DNA from: Clostridium ljungdahlii
GTDB lineage: Bacteria > Bacillota > Clostridia > Clostridiales > Clostridiaceae
Assembly (NCBI RefSeq): GCF_001636845.1
Contig: NZ_LITT01000010.1
Coordinates: 1-64,000 of the forward strand
Direction of reading: 5' to 3'
Length of the DNA: 64,000 nt
The notes below the pieces were generated by a model, which made no database searches, was not told the DNA's origin, and was given only the letters and a program-made list of their open reading frames with translations. A program made the translations under genes and the position numbers. Positions within the stretch are counted from its first letter, which is position 1. Every line of letters starts with the position of its first letter. Positions 21,317 through 43,728 of this stretch are shown piece after piece.

Positions 21317-22757
21317 TTAAATTTTCATTTTTTCATAAAGGTTATTAAGCTGGTCTAAATTATCTTGTGTAAATTCATAATCTAAAGCTCTATCTAAAAA
21401 GCTGTCAGATATTCGATTTATAGAAAGTAATTCATCACATTTTCTGTCGTATTGAAAGAGTGTGCTTAGTTCATATGGCTTGTGATACTTTTCTGGCTTA
21501 AATATTACCTCTGAAACTTTCTTTATATATCTTCTCCCTGTATGTCTGTTTATTGAAAGGAATATTAAAAGATTAACAGCTCTAGCTATATCATATAGTG
21601 CAGATTCTTCGTTCTTATATATTCCTCCACGTATAAGCATATTTTTATAATCATACATGAAATCTTCATTGGATGACGTATGGAAACTTCCCATACTTCC
21701 CCTATTTTGCCTGGTCATTGCCTCTAAGGTTATATATGCTTCTTCTGGAGTTCTAACTTCACCATCTATGATAATATCACGGTTCATTCTAATACCCGTT
21801 TTAAAACAATCCTCTGGAGATTTTAGTTTAAAGAATTTTAAATTCTTAACGTCTTTATCAGGAAAATATTTAAGTATGTTTAATTCCATAGTAGATTCTA
21901 TGGTTAAAATTGAGACATTCTCAGGAATAGAAGATATGATTCTAAAAAGATATGTGGTTTTACCAGTTCCCTGCCCTCCCAATACAAAAATGTTGGGCCG
22001 GCCTTTCATAATTATATCCATGAACTCTTCCATATATAAATTTGAAGTTTTAGATTCTATTAAAGTATTTTTTGAAAAGAAATCAGCTCCCGTATACCTT
22101 AAGTCAAGTGAATAATACCTGCTGTAAGGGGGCATTACAGCCGTTACCCTAGCACCACAAATCCTCTCACATAAAACCTCTGGATTGTTGGGGTCAAGTG
22201 GATGAAAATTATCTAATTTTGAAAATGATACACTTCTTTTTATCATATTCTCATAAGAAACTTCATCTTGAAAAAAAAGCTTTTGAACCCGCTGCTTTTT
22301 TGCCTTTTATCTGGAAACTTATAAAATCCTTAGTATTCACATCTATATCATTAAGTCCTTCTATATCATTATAACTGTATGGATCTATTACTGACAAACC
22401 ATACAATTCTTGAAATATTATCTGTGCTAAAAGCTCTATTTTTGTATCAAGGCTATCATCCTTACAAATACACAAACTATTTATAACACTGTCAAATTCT
22501 TTATTGCTACCTGTATATATTTTTTCAAAATAACTTACATGGTACTGTTCTATTAAAGAGTCTATATTTTTTGTATCTATCGATTCATTTATATAATTTA
22601 TAATAATAATCTTCAAACTCTTTTTACTATTAATATCTCCAAATTCAGCTAATTCCTTCAAAGAGTTTAAATTCTTGATATTAGCACGATTATCATCTAC
22701 CAGATCTCCTATAAACCTTAGCAGTCTATCAAGAGTGTCTATTTTATAAAGTGCCAA
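21317..22757 (-). pseudogene. Frameshifted CpaF/TadA-type secretion ATPase (second copy)
   Basis: Two frames join into one 479-aa VirB11/CpaF ATPase. The N-terminal part (to residue about 165) ends FISFQIKGKKAAGSKAFF and the C-terminal part resumes with DEVSYENMIKRS, NPEVLCERICGARVTAV, Walker A GGQGTGKTT, and AMTRQNRGSMGSFHTSS (the His box). The break is a run of eight A (22271-22278, T on the coding strand); seven would restore the frame, and the total length then divides by three. A TTG start at 22757 follows GGGGGA. The protein would power assembly of the Tad-like pilus. As written it yields two non-functional pieces unless slippage occurs. Confidence 0.8.
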
Positions 22758-34917: not shown

Positions 34918-35298
34918 TCACTGATATATGTATTCATATAAATCATTTTCTTTCTGCCAAATTGTACTTTCATTGTAACTAAGCATAAGGCTTATTTTAC
35001 TGTTTAGAAGTCCCTTTTTAAACTTAAGATCTAAAATTTCACAGTCCTTTTCATTGCTTTTTCTTATGCTTCCTACTATCAAATCTATTTGGCAGTTATT
35101 GAACTTTAAAACTTCTATTTTCTTTTTAATGGAAGCTATCTTTTTTAATGTTTTATCCTTTTCAGCATCTGTAACAACTCTATCTTTATTAAGTCCATAA
35201 TCCAATACTTCTATTTGTCTCTCAAATAAAGCTATTATTGCAAGATCTTTATAATAATTTTTTAAAATTGAAGTTACAACTTTAGTATGTTTTTTCAC
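34918..35298 (-). CDS. Phage-type late regulator (ArpU/RinA-like)
   Basis: 126 aa from a GTG after GGTGGGGG. A helical N-terminus is followed by a sigma-region-4-like helix-turn-helix (DCEILDLKFKKGLLNSKISL and the following ESTIWQKENDLYEYI), the layout of phage ArpU/RinA-type regulators of late genes. After the TGA the same frame stays open for 20 codons (DDESIEDAKKESNNKANNI), which may indicate a former longer C-terminus. Confidence 0.55.
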   Translation of the reverse strand: MKKHTKVVTSILKNYYKDLAIIALFERQIEVLDYGLNKDRVVTDAEKDKTLKKIASIKKKIEVLKFNNCQIDLIVGSIRKSNEKDCEILDLKFKKGLLNSKISLMLSYNESTIWQKENDLYEYIYQ

Positions 35299-35314
35299 TT
35301 GTGGCCCCCACCTT

Positions 35315-35803
35315 CTATATTAATTTCTTACTTTTATCAATAAAAAATTTATATTGCTTACCTTTTATATTTATCTTTGTTATTTGCTCTTCACTGTCAA
35401 TAACAATTATTATCCTCGTAGATGTACTTCTTTCTATAGCTGGAATAAATATAGATTCCTGTCCTTCTTTTATTAGTGAAATATCAAAGAATTTATTTCC
35501 CTCTATAAAAGACAAAATATAGGGAAACTGTGATATACCACACCAGTTTATATTAAACATTTTATGTATATAACTATAGGCATCCAATGCCCTAAGTAAA
35601 TCCTTATTAATTTTCTTAACTGATGGGTGAATGAGAAGGTCACCTTCTCTTTTTAAATAAGGCATTATTTTATATGTAAGAGGTTCTATTAATTTATCTA
35701 TATTATTCATCCCTGTTATATCTCTAATTTGAGAAATAGTAAGATGTACAAATTGCTTTAATAGATCCACTATTTGTTTTTGCCCTTTTGATAAATAAAA
35801 CAC
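35315..35803 (-). CDS. Plasmid/ICE-type hypothetical protein with winged-helix-like N-terminus
   Basis: 162 aa from GTG 35803, 5 nt after AGGAGTG; the ATG at 35881 has no site. Residues 10-60 (IVDLLKQFVHLTISQIRDIT) have a helix-turn-helix pattern seen in replication-relaxation and DUF5697-type proteins of conjugative elements; the rest is a mixed alpha/beta domain (FIPAIERSTSTRIIIVID). It precedes the ArpU-like gene by 16 nt. The role is unproven. Confidence 0.5.
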   Translation of the reverse strand: MFYLSKGQKQIVDLLKQFVHLTISQIRDITGMNNIDKLIEPLTYKIMPYLKREGDLLIHPSVKKINKDLLRALDAYSYIHKMFNINWCGISQFPYILSFIEGNKFFDISLIKEGQESIFIPAIERSTSTRIIIVIDSEEQITKINIKGKQYKFFIDKSKKLI

Positions 35804-36203
35804 ACTATCACTCCTATTTATTAATACTTTAGGAGGGAGGGCTTCACATAAGGCAAAGCCCCTATAAAGATATAAGGACATGCTTAAAATTGATATGATA
35901 TATATTTAAGATAAGCTGTTCTCTTTACCCTACATTTACATGATAACGAAAATTTGAAAAAATAAACTTGTTTATAAAATTATTTTTTTATTGGCTCAAA
36001 ATTTGGGTTATAATTTTATTAGAATTTGAGATTTTTTAGAGTTCGTTTACTGTTAACTTAAAATAAAGTTTGCTTCAAATATAAAAAAAACAACATTATT
36101 AGATAATGCGATATTTAGAAAATATTATGATATACTTAAGCTATAATTTGTAAATAAGATAGAGCTTACCATAGGATAATTAAACAAATTTGGGGGAATA
36201 ATT

Positions 36204-37295: not shown

Positions 37296-38210
37296 TTACC
37301 AAAATGATCCGTTATCTTCCCCTATAGAATTGTCGTTATTTTGTTTGGAACTGCTGCTTTTAACAGCATCACAATTGTCCAAAAAATTTAATTGGGTACC
37401 ATTTTCTCTGGCTTTTTTATCTTTTAACTTTTCTAACTTACGTATCTCTTTTTTTATTTCATTTTCTGATAAATTACTATACTCATTTACTTTATTAAGT
37501 TTAATTTGAGTCTTCTCATTTTAGGAATATTTATATTTTTTCTATCACCTTTACCCTGGACATTTTCACATTTACAGTCAATATCATCCTTTTTAATTTC
37601 AGCATTTTCCAATTCATCATCTGTAGATTTTTCACTTTCCTGGTAATTGCTTTTGTTAATATCTTCATTACTGTTTCCTGAGTTAGAATTTATTTTTGCC
37701 TCTACAACTTTTAAAATTTTACTTATAAGAAAAAGTACTTTTTTCTTGAAGATTTCAAAACTTGTCATTTTTTTATTAACTTCTAATTTACGTTTTTGAG
37801 CTTCCCTTCTTGCCTTCTCAATCATTTCTTCTTCAGCCGGATAATACTTTTCAGCCTACGGCAATTTATAATTTCTAACACCCATGCTTTTTAATGCTCC
37901 CGCCATCTCATGTTCTGAATAATCCATTTTATACAGCATAAGCGGTTGGTATCCCCTTTGCATGAGTACAGCTTTCCTTTTATCAAGCTTGAGAAGTTCA
38001 TCAGGATTCAATAAATTTCTCTTACTCGAAGATGTATTTTTTGAGCCAAAGTCTGTAAGTCCTTGAATTCCTGCTTTCCTGTTTTCAGAATGAGTTTCTA
38101 CTGTAGAAATTCCCATGTGATCAGAAACCTGCTTTGCTGTCATATCATCTGATGCCCCCAAAAAAAGCTGACTGTCACAGTTACCCAAAATCTCCAGACA
38201 CCCATTATTT
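37296..38210 (-). pseudogene. 3' remnant of a VirD4/TraG coupling protein
   Basis: The frame LEILGNCDSQLFLGASDDMTA ... LLNPDELLKLDKRKAVLMQRGYQPLML is the C-terminal ATPase region of a conjugation coupling protein, lacking the Walker motifs and membrane part. A TAG (37856-37858) interrupts it before AEKYYPAEEEMIEKARRE. Further on, near 37519, loss of one A shifts the frame; reading on gives EKTQIKLNKVNEYSNLSENE ... GSFW. So the gene is truncated, stopped and shifted. Conjugation cannot depend on this copy. Confidence 0.75.
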
Positions 38211-40242: not shown

Positions 40243-40572
40243 AATTAGCACTCCTTTGTTACAAGTATTCATAGTTCATAAATTCAATTTCAACAAGATA
40301 TCATTATATTCTATTTTACCCAAATTACATTATTTTCTAAAGTCATTTCTATAATCAAATAATTTAAATATTTCATATTATTAACTTATAAATTTCTATC
40401 TATACATTATAGTAACATATTAAATATGACAACTGTATGTCATAATAACTTACAACTGTGCATTTATTCTATTATGCAACACATTATTATAGAGGCTTGC
40501 TATCAATCAAAAAATATAACATTTCTTAAAATATTTCATACCTAATTTAGTTAACTAGAACCAATGAATTAT

Positions 40573-40606
40573 ATTATTTTAACGAACATATGTTTGTTAA
40601 AATAAT
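40573..40606. promoter_or_regulatory. 34-bp palindrome containing an SOS (LexA) box
   Basis: The centre CGAACATATGTTTG (40583-40596) matches the Firmicute LexA box CGAACnnnnGTTCG with one change. The palindrome extends over 34 bp with a single mismatch. It overlaps a likely -35 (TTGTTA) and precedes a -10 (TATAAA) of the LexA-like gene, so autorepression is probable. The surrounding gap 40243-40645 holds nothing else recognised. Confidence 0.85.
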
Positions 40607-40645
40607 ATTAAATACTATAAAGCCATTGACCAAAGGGGTGCGTTT

Positions 40646-41254
40646 ATGTTAAACAGAAAGGGGTCTAATCAATTAAAGATTTATAACTTTATAAAATTGT
40701 ATATTAAACAAAAAGGATATTCTCCATCCATAAGAGAAATATGTAAAGCTGTAGGATTAAGTTCTACATCTAGTGTACAGAGAGATTTAAAAATTTTAGA
40801 AAACGCTACCCTTATAAAAAAAGATCCAGCTAAACCTAGGACTATAAGAATTACAAAAAATTCCTTAGATAAAAAATTACTGATAAATGTTCCTATTATG
40901 AATAACATAGTTATAGGTAATTCTATTTTTTCATCAAATAATATAATAGGTACATTCCCTCTTCCAATAAGCTACACAAAAAACAAAAACCAGCTTTTCA
41001 TCATTAAATCCCATGGGGAAAGCATGATAAATATAGGAGTCCTAACTGGCGATATGGTCATACTTGAAAAAACAAATTACGTTGAAAGTGGAGAAATAGC
41101 AGCTGTCATACTTAAAAATAAAGTTATTTTAGAAAGATTGTTTAAAAGTAAAAATTATATAAAACTTCAACCTGAAAACGCCACAATGAAATCAATAATC
41201 GTATCTAATTGCACTATCGTTGGGAAATTAGTAGGAGTATATAGATGTTACTGA
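40646..41254 (+). CDS. LexA-like repressor lacking the cleavage alanine and catalytic lysine
   Basis: 202 aa, normal LexA length. The N-terminal winged helix is intact (GYSPSIREICKAVGLSSTSS). In the S24 domain the segment NVPIMNNIVIGNSIF aligns with the cleavage loop, so the scissile Ala-Gly has become Ile-Gly. The nucleophile Ser remains (HGESMIN), but the EATVKRF lysine is Glu (KVILERLF). Self-cleavage should therefore fail. ATG follows GGGGTG. It would bind SOS boxes, including its own, and stay bound after damage. The host's true LexA must be elsewhere. Confidence 0.85.
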   Translation: MLNRKGSNQLKIYNFIKLYIKQKGYSPSIREICKAVGLSSTSSVQRDLKILENATLIKKDPAKPRTIRITKNSLDKKLLINVPIMNNIVIGNSIFSSNNIIGTFPLPISYTKNKNQLFIIKSHGESMINIGVLTGDMVILEKTNYVESGEIAAVILKNKVILERLFKSKNYIKLQPENATMKSIIVSNCTIVGKLVGVYRCY

Positions 41255-41278
41255 AAAATGGGACCTTCCTATCAGAAA

Positions 41279-41587
41279 CTACATAAAAATATACTTTTTT
41301 AACACATTGCGTCTTATATCCTTCCACTTAGCAGACAACTCTGGATGTTCTTCAACTTGCCTAATTCTATCATTTAAAATTCTCTCTTCTTCCTTCTGTT
41401 CTAGTTCCATAAGTCTTTCATACATTTTTTCAAATTGGTCATATGATAAAATTACTGTATCAATATTGCCATTGTCTGATATATATATTGGGTTCTCTTT
41501 AGCTTTTTTTCTATATTGCCCCAGACTTTTAGAAACTATAGAAGATTTTACAATTTGCTCTTTTGTTATTTTAAGCCTAGTGTCCAT
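41279..41587 (-). CDS. Phd/YefM-family antitoxin
   Basis: 102 aa; ATG 41587 follows GGGAG by 5 nt. The N-terminal fold (VKSSIVSKSLGQYRKKAKEN followed by PIYISDNGNIDTVILSYDQFEKM) matches Phd/YefM antitoxins, which bind DNA and a RelE/Doc-type toxin through their C-terminal helix. No toxin gene is adjacent: the next gene downstream is the convergent LexA-like gene. It may be an orphan or act only as a repressor. Confidence 0.75.
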   Translation of the reverse strand: MDTRLKITKEQIVKSSIVSKSLGQYRKKAKENPIYISDNGNIDTVILSYDQFEKMYERLMELEQKEEERILNDRIRQVEEHPELSAKWKDIRRNVLKKYIFM

Positions 41588-41690
41588 AACATCTCCCATT
41601 TTTATTCCTTCCTTACAGCCTATTTTAAATTAAATATAATATATTACGTAATATTTGTCTATATGTTTAAATCAAAATATATTGGCTGGA

Positions 41691-42416
41691 CTATAAAAGT
41701 TCTAACTCTAAACCTTCATCTGCTGCATATACAGGCTTACCAGTTAATTTTTCAATCTCTTCTATAAACATTTTTTCGTCGCTGTTATCACCACTTAAAT
41801 GCAATAAGGTAATCTCCCTAACTTCACTTAGATCTGTTTCACTTAGGAATTCTTTAACATTTTCCAGGCTAAAGTGAGACTTTATAATTCTATTTCTTAG
41901 CTTATACGGTATAGTACCGTTCTCTATATTCTTGTTTAAAACATTGACATCATAATTACATTCAATCATAATGTGAGTTATTCCTGAAAATTTATATCTG
42001 CAGTAATAACTATCAGTTATAAATAGAAGTCTTCCGATTTCATTGTGGTATATTAGAAATCCTAAAGGTTCCACTGCATCATGATCGGTTTTAAAAGGCA
42101 TTACAGTAAAATCTCCTACTGCAAATTGCTCTTCACTTCTAATACTGTGAACCCTATATCCTGACATACCATAAAAATCAATTGTTCCTTTTCCAGTATA
42201 AATATCTATACCTGCCTTTATTATATCTTTTATAGCCTTACAGTGATCCCTATGTTCATGTGTTATTAAACATGCTGCTACATCACTAACGTTGAAATTC
42301 AAGCCTTTTAAAATAGTCCTGTAAGATAATCCACATTCCAACATTAAAGTTTCATTTTCGTTCTGGAGTAGATAGCAGTTTCCTGCTGATCCACTCCCTA
42401 GCACTTTAAGTTTCAT
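41691..42416 (-). CDS. MBL-fold hydrolase next to recT
   Basis: 241 aa with the MBL motif ITHEHRDHCKAI near residue 53 and further ligand regions (FKTDHDAVEP, FITDSYY). It resembles YycJ/WalJ-type exonuclease-like MBL proteins found in phage recombination modules. ATG 42416 overlaps the recT stop (TGATG), so translation is coupled. It probably acts with RecT on DNA ends; this is inferred from context. Confidence 0.75.
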   Translation of the reverse strand: MKLKVLGSGSAGNCYLLQNENETLMLECGLSYRTILKGLNFNVSDVAACLITHEHRDHCKAIKDIIKAGIDIYTGKGTIDFYGMSGYRVHSIRSEEQFAVGDFTVMPFKTDHDAVEPLGFLIYHNEIGRLLFITDSYYCRYKFSGITHIMIECNYDVNVLNKNIENGTIPYKLRNRIIKSHFSLENVKEFLSETDLSEVREITLLHLSGDNSDEKMFIEEIEKLTGKPVYAADEGLELELL

Positions 42417-43365
42417 CAAAATCCCGGTCCTTCCATTTCAATCTGTTCTAAGCTATCTTCATTACTGTCTTCATCTGACTGTACATCTTTAGGCTTAACA
42501 TCAATTATGCTTTTAGATTTATCTTTACTGTTCTGATCCTGATTTTCAGGTACCTCAACGTCTATTTCCTTTTTATTAGCATTGTCTTTTATTTCTTCTT
42601 TAACCTCATATTCAACATTATCAACCATATCTTTATCCTCATGAACTTTGTCAGTATTATTGAAAGCTTCAATTAAAAGATCACTGTCATCTGAAGTATT
42701 TGCATACATTTTGCAAGCCCTGTTTATTACTGTTTTCTTAGCCATTTCATCAGTAAAATTATTATGGGCAGTGCTTTTTCCTGTTTTATAGGCAATACCT
42801 TGCCCCCATGCTTTCTTTATCTGGTTTATGTTCATTATTTCAGTGTGAATAGGGTCATTTTCTCCAATTATTACTGCAAATGCCCCTTTGATCTTATTGA
42901 TATCTATATTTTCAAATTTAGGATTAAATTTGCTAATACTTAGGGTTGCTGTATCTAAATTATATGTCTCTTCAAATTCATCACCCTCATATATGCAATA
43001 GGCTTTTACATCCTTAATACCATTTAATCTTTTAGTTACTGCTACAGTTCCCATATAACTTCTCATAAGCTGGAGCTGTTTTCCATATACTACAAAATAG
43101 CACTGCTTCTTTGCAGGTGTTAATCCCTGCAGGCACATATCATATAGTGAACCTACAATCGAATTCTTAGTACATATTTCTAATGCAGGAGCTCCTGATT
43201 TATCCTTAACCTCTTGAAGTAATAACCATACACTGTTAATTGCATTTGCAACTGAGTAACTTTTAGGAAAAACTATATCACTGCTCTTTCTTAATTCATT
43301 AATCTTTGCTGTTACCTGTTTTAAAGCTTCTTCCTTAGCCTTTCTAAAAATATTGTTTTACTCAT
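42416..43365 (-). pseudogene. recT: recT single-strand annealing gene, frameshifted near the start
   Basis: From ATG 43365 the frame closes after 14 codons, but a +1 frame encodes KAKEEALKQVTAKINELRKS ... MCLQGLTPAKKQCYFVVYGKQL ... YKTGKSTAHNNFTDEMAKKTVINRACK, a RecT protein with an acidic tail. The coding strand has AGTAAAACAAT; one more A would restore MSKNNIFRKAKEE and make the length divisible by three. RecT pairs single strands in phage and ICE recombination. A truncated product could start at an internal ATG at 43138, lacking about 75 residues. Leader repeat copy B lies upstream. Confidence 0.8.
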
Positions 43366-43394
43366 TCTCATTCTCCCGTTTATCTTTTTTATAT

Positions 43395-43420
43395 AAAAAA
43401 ACTGCCTAAAAGACAGTTTC
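43395..43420 (-). terminator. Hairpin upstream of recT
   Basis: AAACTGCC and GACAGTTT pair around TAAAA; on the minus strand the stem is followed by AGGCAGTTTTTTT. It lies between the leader repeat and recT and could act as an attenuator. Confidence 0.65.
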
Positions 43421-43435
43421 TAATATCAATATGTC

Positions 43436-43515
43436 GTTAGCTGTACGGCCAAAACTAAATGTTACCCAATTACGGACATTAACCAAATTTATTTCTCACT
43501 TTTAATATGCGGTAA
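43436..43515 (-). repeat. Leader repeat, copy B
   Basis: Contains GGCCAAAACTAAATGTTACC, GACATTAACCAAATTTATTT and CACTTTTAATATGCGGTA (plus-strand reading), the best match to copy A. It precedes the recT-MBL operon, with a hairpin between. Confidence 0.75.
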
Positions 43516-43563
43516 AATCTTAAAGGCGGAACAGTTAACTTGTTTATAATTTAAATTTTTATA

Positions 43564-43590
43564 TAAAAAAACCCCACCTCTGCAGGTGGA
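43564..43590 (-). terminator. Terminator upstream of the recT leader
   Basis: CCACCT and AGGTGG pair around GCAG; on the minus strand a run of T follows (GGTTTTTTTATA). It belongs to the XRE-TPR gene at 43729. Confidence 0.8.
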
Positions 43591-43728
43591 AGAAATCCAC
43601 ATATGATACCTAATTCGGTTATCTATATTTGTGATACAGTTCACAATAATTATCATAAGCGATGTTTTCACATTTTATACTTATGCAGTGTCCAATCTTT
43701 ATAATTAGATACTTTATCAATTTTAGTA

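Follow-up and report, generated by a model that had tools for sequence, protein, structure and literature searches.

RecA filaments trigger the self-cleavage of LexA, and an uncleavable LexA, such as those encoded by lexA Ind- alleles, is expected to be dominant. The locus studied here raises the question of what a second LexA, predicted to be uncleavable and encoded behind an SOS box of its own, would do on a mobile element. The gene, lexA2, lies in the window (by which we mean the whole 64,000-nucleotide stretch of DNA analyzed, G000:C11:1-64000) of a 4.36-Mb genome (G000), and a preliminary description made from the sequence had proposed that its product could hold SOS genes silent after damage. 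We put at roughly 50% the probability that lexA2 is a mobile-element copy of a host lexA turned into an uncleavable, damage-induced repressor.

40646-41254, + strand: lexA2, a LexA paralogue with I90-G91 in place of Ala-Gly, S126 kept, and E163 in place of the catalytic Lys

Read directly, lexA2 is an open reading frame of 202 aa with no internal stops, and its product has both the winged-helix DNA-binding domain and the S24 domain of LexA: the Pfam profiles PF01726 and PF00717 scored 61.0 and 75.9 bits (cut-offs, 23.7 and 23.3, respectively), and the TIGR00498 lexA model scored 164.6 bits (cut-off, 110.95). In tblastn comparisons with host and related LexAs and in HMMER alignments with solved LexAs, I90-G91, S126, and E163 fell on the Ala-Gly bond, the catalytic Ser, and the catalytic Lys of E. 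coli LexA, respectively. As the preliminary description had it, the scissile Ala-Gly is thus Ile-Gly and the catalytic Lys is Glu, with the Ser kept; neither Ala-Gly nor Cys-Gly is present at the cleavage site, and the Ser-Lys dyad is incomplete. A shifted Ala-Gly or Lys was ruled out by the agreement of the tblastn and HMMER alignments on this register. In one of the three HMMER alignments, that with Thermotoga 3k2z, an Ala lies opposite E163 and the Lys adjoins it; because the residue beside E163 in LexA2 is Arg, no shifted Lys rescues the protein. Because the Ala-Gly bond and the catalytic Lys are both missing, and the check for an alignment shift found none, we predict from the sequence, in agreement with the earlier claim, that RecA-stimulated self-cleavage of LexA2 is absent. 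The other LexA of G000 (L001) has the canonical Ala-Gly, Ser, and Lys, as did 41 of 41 host LexAs (the best-matching copies fetched from Clostridiaceae), G000's own included; the G000 host protein shares 98% identity with the LexA of Clostridium ragsdalei (L047). An AlphaFold model of LexA2 (mean pLDDT 83.9; 91-95 in the C-terminal blocks) found its best structural matches among solved LexAs, with E. coli C-terminal domains at ~2 Å over ~125 columns, and in this model the C-terminal fold of LexA is retained.

The region upstream of lexA2 contains three overlapping features:

40571-40608, no strand assigned: 38-bp near-perfect palindrome (18/19 pairs) with the operator
40579-40606, + strand: weak (9/12) promoter-like pair TTAACG-16-AATAAT whose spacer contains the box
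40583-40596, + strand: SOS (LexA) box CGAACATATGTTTG, assigned by resemblance to the host's lexA and recA operators

The SOS box that the preliminary description had placed on the lexA2 promoter lies 62 bp upstream of the start codon, at the center of the palindrome, and is bracketed by the weak promoter-like pair, so that its position on a promoter is predicted (17 pairs of that grade were found in the stretch against 10 expected). Given its similarity to the operators of host lexA (TAGAACATAAGTTTGA, at -69) and host recA (CAGAACATGCGTTCGT) in G000, we regard the lexA2 box as being of the host type, with a GTTTG half as at host lexA. Under the strict pattern [AC]GAACN4GTTY[GTC], the box is the single site within 64 kb, and no further SOS box was found on the window island under that pattern. 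The loose pattern GAACN4GTTY occurred three times in the window against 2.3 expected, which is chance level, and the case for the box therefore rests on its position and its resemblance to the operator of host lexA rather than on a count. The palindrome itself proved real, being the best of its size in the window (18/19 pairs, whereas ten shuffles of the window reached 14-16), but it is 38 bp long and not 34 bp as had been described. In G006 (L020), the core and right arm of the palindrome are conserved and the left arm is different. That the left arm differs while the core is kept weakens the idea of an ancestral extended operator, and a local template-switch origin of the long palindrome is possible. 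Elsewhere in G000, no box was found before uvrB in the fetched stretch, but the uvrB ORF is open at its 5' end there, which makes this negative uninformative; two DNA adenine methylase-like genes (so labeled by eye; L156 and L158, on C8 and C17) are each preceded by an SOS-like box, ~50 bp from the start.

The genes around lexA2 that bear on its setting are as follows:

21317-22246, - strand: T2SSE/Tad-type secretion ATPase, common to the G002 island
34918-35881, - strand: two ORFs (one DUF5697) in a stretch with 76% DNA identity to the G002 island
37856-38188, - strand: VirD4/TraG coupling-protein fragment of 110 aa, whose relative on the G002 island has 776 aa
41279-41599, - strand: Phd/YefM-antitoxin-like ORF, convergent with lexA2 (29.3 bits; cut-off, 29.8)
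41691-42419, - strand: MBL-fold hydrolase (phrog_392), also in the G002 island
42416-43138, - strand: RecT-like ssDNA-annealing protein, matched by the profile only from position 34; the G002 island has a RecT too

The mobile-element setting suggested earlier is upheld by the VirD4/TraG fragment, the T2SSE ATPases, and the RecT nearby, and by a related island in another genome (G002), which matches five stretches of the window of >500 bp, lexA2 included, at 69-76% DNA identity. The window also contains an actin-like partition protein and a sliding-clamp-like gene. The VirD4 and ATPase ORFs are truncated, and, judged by its gene content, lexA2 is on a decayed conjugative-type island. At the same locus of G006, lexA2 is disrupted by a premature stop codon and by a ~2.9-kb deletion (window positions 40770-43704 compared with L101; the two matches overlap by 15 bp at the junction) that has taken most of the gene together with the RecT and MBL genes, and the SOS core is kept. 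Because the window island is decayed and the G006 orthologue is broken, the function of lexA2 is dispensable there.

The statement of the preliminary description that the DNA-binding domain is kept stands for the fold of the domain but not for its recognition helix, which reads STSSVQRDL in LexA2 compared with STSTVHSHL in the host protein (VHSH to VQRD), so that three consecutive residues are altered (H-S-H to Q-R-D). Among the 56 rows of our tree that are labeled cleavable, Gln occurs at the first of these positions in one and Asp at the third in none. The labels of these 56 rows, and of 15 rows called noncanonical, were given by their A-G, S, and K residues; therefore, only the helix counts and the Gly-Asp counts given below are informative, and the unselected control is the set of 41/41 hosts. 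Because its recognition helix is altered, the LexA2 of the window may not read host boxes, and the binding of host boxes by this copy is the main doubt. Most other SOS-boxed paralogues have a host-type recognition helix. Overall, LexA2 resembles canonical LexA (TIGR00498) in its two-domain length, equivalog score, and SOS box on its own promoter, but it differs in having no Ala-Gly or catalytic Lys, in being a second copy on an island, and in its altered helix.

The two changes in LexA2 recur in the closest relative found, that of the G002 island (G002p; 59% identical), which also has I-G and is without the Lys (here Gly); it follows an ORF of 151 aa, and a perfect SOS box heads the two-gene unit. 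Among 206 Clostridiaceae genomes, two LexA matches at E 1e-20 were present in 11; in one of these (G197), a single gene was split over two contig ends, leaving 10 genomes with an extra copy. The extra copy was without cleavage determinants in 8 of these 10, a count that holds for E 1e-20; a second match appears in more genomes at 1e-15. The extra copies of G000 and G002 are altered at Ala and Lys, and those of G038 and G046 at the site, the Ser, and the Lys. The copies of G016, G035, and G044 differ at Ala and at the Gly before Ser, and their non-cleavability is less sure because Ser and Lys are kept. In G017 and G020, both LexA copies are cleavable. From the E 1e-15 list, the second match of G115 (L141) is a cleavable Cys-Gly LexA, and those of G019, G083, G142, G153, and G178 consist of the C-terminal domain only, as part of longer ORFs. 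The copy of G131 (L112:7908-8456) is truncated, with its N-terminal part fused in frame to a phage-integrase end, behind an SOS box; the fusion adjoins a gene labeled by eye as rpsI-like. In G020, L076 encodes a cleavable LexA without an SOS box and has the same sequence, in the stretch seen, as the LexA of phage contig L169; being cleavable and boxless, L169 and L076 have the opposite design to lexA2.

A sample of phage and plasmid loci gave similar proteins, and the pattern thus recurs on unrelated elements: in the 14 loci checked among 132 records with matches, at least one determinant was missing in 5, and 9 encoded a normal cleavable LexA. The five are on three Paraclostridium plasmids, one Virgibacillus plasmid, and one unannotated phage record (L125). 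The three Paraclostridium loci are on complete plasmid records with phage structural genes, and in the P. bifermentans copy, the gene is divided between two ORFs. On the three Paraclostridium plasmids, an ORF of 42-44 aa follows the non-cleavable lexA (L171:22875-23003, L172:6390-6524, and L173:27956-28084) and precedes a convergent HTH regulator, a place that recalls gp7, the small LexA partner of GIL01. The G+C-rich LexA on phage record L125 (MT835640.1) keeps Ala-Gly and Ser, but its Lys is replaced by Thr, and the SOS-like boxes lie farther upstream. IMG/VR lists as viral the contigs that carry the G044 and G016 copies, an identification made by length and match. Scans of viral contigs with the queries P0001 and A1 gave weak matches only; scan A2 gave five loci, of which two were the G044 and G016 contigs, one was a new G016-type relative, one was the cleavable phage LexA of L169, and one was cut before the helix, with A-G, S, and K present.

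Of 12 loci (8 Clostridiaceae and 4 plasmid copies, with L125 and the 10 noncanonical copies of the class survey described below left out), 10 had a box no more than 200 nt from the gene, compared with 0.08 expected from shuffles; for G002p, the 200 nt upstream of the leading ORF in its two-gene unit were taken, and the background was 10 of 205 ORFs with a box, the lexA ORFs themselves included. The copies without a box near the start were G016p and that of Virgibacillus. Strict boxes were confined to the region before lexA in 10 of 11 stretches scanned (the two G002 stretches counted as one), most of which are parts of elements and not whole elements; the three complete plasmids had no match to the loose pattern away from lexA either. 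Because the boxes are so confined, self-control and host operators are the obvious targets of LexA2: on these stretches its own gene is its one evident target, and the other consensus targets belong to the host. Accordingly, we propose a group to which lexA2 belongs, namely extra LexA copies without the determinants, with a box within 200 nt, and in a mobile-element setting. The TIGR00498 equivalog model named 5 of 5 such proteins scanned LexA, above its cut-off, and because this NCBI model names them LexA, the annotation "transcriptional repressor LexA" hides such copies.

Beyond these loci, 24 further extra copies were fetched from Clostridia, comprising 12 Cys-Gly and 2 Ala-Gly proteins with Ser and Lys and 10 noncanonical ones. 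Just 1 of the 10 noncanonical copies had a good box (L131, at -87), and several cleavable Cys-Gly copies had perfect boxes; therefore, non-cleavable copies are not alone in having a box. Eight of the 10 (L144, L146, L147, and L149-L153) have no Ala-Gly, Arg for Lys, and no good SOS box; they have a common recognition helix, TPGAVQGILNRLE, and are present in four families of Clostridia. Judged by these residues, the L144-type proteins are a separate LexA-like family.

We next consider where the element-borne copies come from. In a careful tree of 69 rows (the long rows L117 and L049 of 71 were dropped, and the columns of the trait itself were retained), the window copy and that of G002 were sisters (100/100); they grouped with the lexA genes of G001, G009, G010, and G012 (100/97) and apart from the host lexA genes of G000 and G002. 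Because they do not group with the lexA of their own hosts, this placement agrees with a gene captured from a different lineage within the genus and transferred horizontally. The tree requires a minimum of five state changes, four of them in element-type copies (window plus G002; four genus-g3 copies; G038; and two P. sordellii copies) and the fifth on the L144/L131 side. A single clade was rejected (AU p 0.0016); long branches restrict how well individual rows can be placed. A change of Gly to Asp two residues before the catalytic Ser was found in 9 of 11 noncanonical rows outside the L144 group and is absent from the window copy; on the alignment, this change beside the Ser is a convergent mark. 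The dN/dS between the window copy and G002p was 0.28 in the DNA-binding domain and 0.45 in the C-terminal domain, and the corresponding ranges were 0.07-0.19 and 0.17-0.43 for five genus-g3 paralogue pairs and, mostly lower, 0-0.11 and 0.04-0.15 for host pairs (one not computable), all of these figures being rough because synonymous change is near saturation. Thus, by these estimates, LexA2 is maintained, its DNA-binding part most, and its C-terminal domain is loosened but not free.

How, then, would such a protein act? In the resting cell, host LexA on the box at 40583-40596 would hold lexA2 nearly off. Upon DNA damage, RecA-driven self-cleavage would remove host LexA, and lexA2 would be transcribed; LexA2, being itself uncleaved, would accumulate and close its own box (autoregulation). 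By re-occupying host SOS operators, it would turn the SOS response into a short or damped pulse, and the element would be spared an SOS-induced division block, rival prophage induction, or mutagenesis during its replication or ssDNA transfer. The element in the window, which the earlier idea of protecting a mobile element would concern, is itself decayed. Because an SOS box stands in front of the gene, LexA2 would be a damage-triggered brake and not the constant silencer implied earlier. In a toy model with hand-chosen parameters, the response was damped, mildly with a weak promoter and a tight operator and almost completely when promoter and operator were equal; it was nearly abolished if lexA2 was not tightly repressed. 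Laboratory lexA3-type Ind- alleles are uncleavable and repress SOS dominantly, and LexA2 would be alike in its expected phenotype; it is instead natural, element-borne, and SOS-controlled and would therefore be a brake rather than a constant block. Promoter activity, host-box binding, repression, and the benefit to the element are the parts of this mechanism that we infer, and host-box binding and repression are least sure for the window copy among such LexAs. That LexA2 silences host SOS genes is a reasonable reading of the sequences, which is strengthened by the confinement of the strict box to the region before the paralogue in 10 of 11 stretches and weakened, for the window protein, by its altered recognition helix.

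The chief rival to the brake is an altered-specificity regulator resembling gp6 of phage GIL01, which would be derepressed by SOS, read another site, and control (perhaps activate) element genes and not the host regulon. As described in PMC6182141, gp6 is a truncated LexA homologue, reduced to the DNA-binding domain; once derepressed by SOS, it reads a distinct palindrome and activates late genes. It is thought to be host-acquired, and gp6 and LexA2 are both element-borne LexA relatives with SOS release. The altered helix of the window copy fits this proposal, as does the existence of the L144-type proteins, which are noncanonical LexA relatives with a different recognition helix. We nevertheless consider it unlikely, given that most other SOS-boxed paralogues keep the host-type helix, that LexA2 is a full-length two-domain protein whose complete C-terminal domain is unlike gp6, which has the DNA-binding domain only, and that a second operator was not found in a search that used the SOS pattern.

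A different possibility is that lexA2 is a decaying duplicate on a dead island, in which the catalytic losses are neutral and the box was inherited from the source lexA. The decay of the island, the broken G006 orthologue, the broken or fused P. bifermentans and G131 copies, the long tree branches, and a C-terminal dN/dS raised ~2-5 times over host LexAs are all in line with it, but an expressed uncleavable LexA should be dominant and hence not neutral, and separate lineages keep the ORF, the helix, and the box. The Gly-to-Asp change beside the Ser, common to those 9 of 11 noncanonical rows outside the L144 group, also speaks against neutral loss. The ORF of the window is moreover intact, with dN/dS <1 in both domains, which rules out lexA2 as a pseudogene in the window and leaves slow decay improbable in our judgment. 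LexA2 might instead pair with host LexA and alter its operator affinity or cleavage rate, for which the dimerization domain, retained as a fold, would be suited; because little partner would be left once host LexA is gone at damage induction, we hold this to be very improbable. The brake reading, with its doubt about host boxes, is the one that we carry forward.

Mobile elements are already known to blunt SOS via RecA or LexA cleavage. GIL01 gp7, PsiB, and RamT/RamA of ICEBs1 are mobile-element SOS dampers acting on LexA, RecA, or RecA filaments, ICEBs1 providing the precedent for dampening by an ICE, and none of them is described in the excerpted text as a LexA relative competing at operators, unlike LexA2 as read here (PMC11841131). 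Leptospira LexA2 is, like the window lexA2, a second, element-borne LexA copy, is encoded on a prophage, and binds its own promoter; unlike the window protein, it has Cys-Gly with Ser and Lys, is depleted by UV, and binds a different motif (PMC3789691). Among the matches listed in a literature search, which covered sources other than subscription papers and preprints, there was no element-borne or paralogous uncleavable LexA class.

A captured, cleavage-dead LexA under SOS control would be a distinct and simpler means of blunting SOS, with more than one evolutionary origin. It is a tentative proposal, on balance somewhat doubtful, that, in Clostridia, phage-plasmids and conjugative islands have captured host lexA on repeated, independent occasions, removed its self-cleavage, and kept its SOS box, thereby making a self-limiting brake; if this were true, the brake, competing with dying host LexA for SOS operators, would represent a convergent anti-SOS class. 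Overall, the similar copies on several elements suggest that mobile elements of this kind may equip their host with a brake on its DNA damage response, and such a brake could change host damage survival, mutation rate, and prophage induction.
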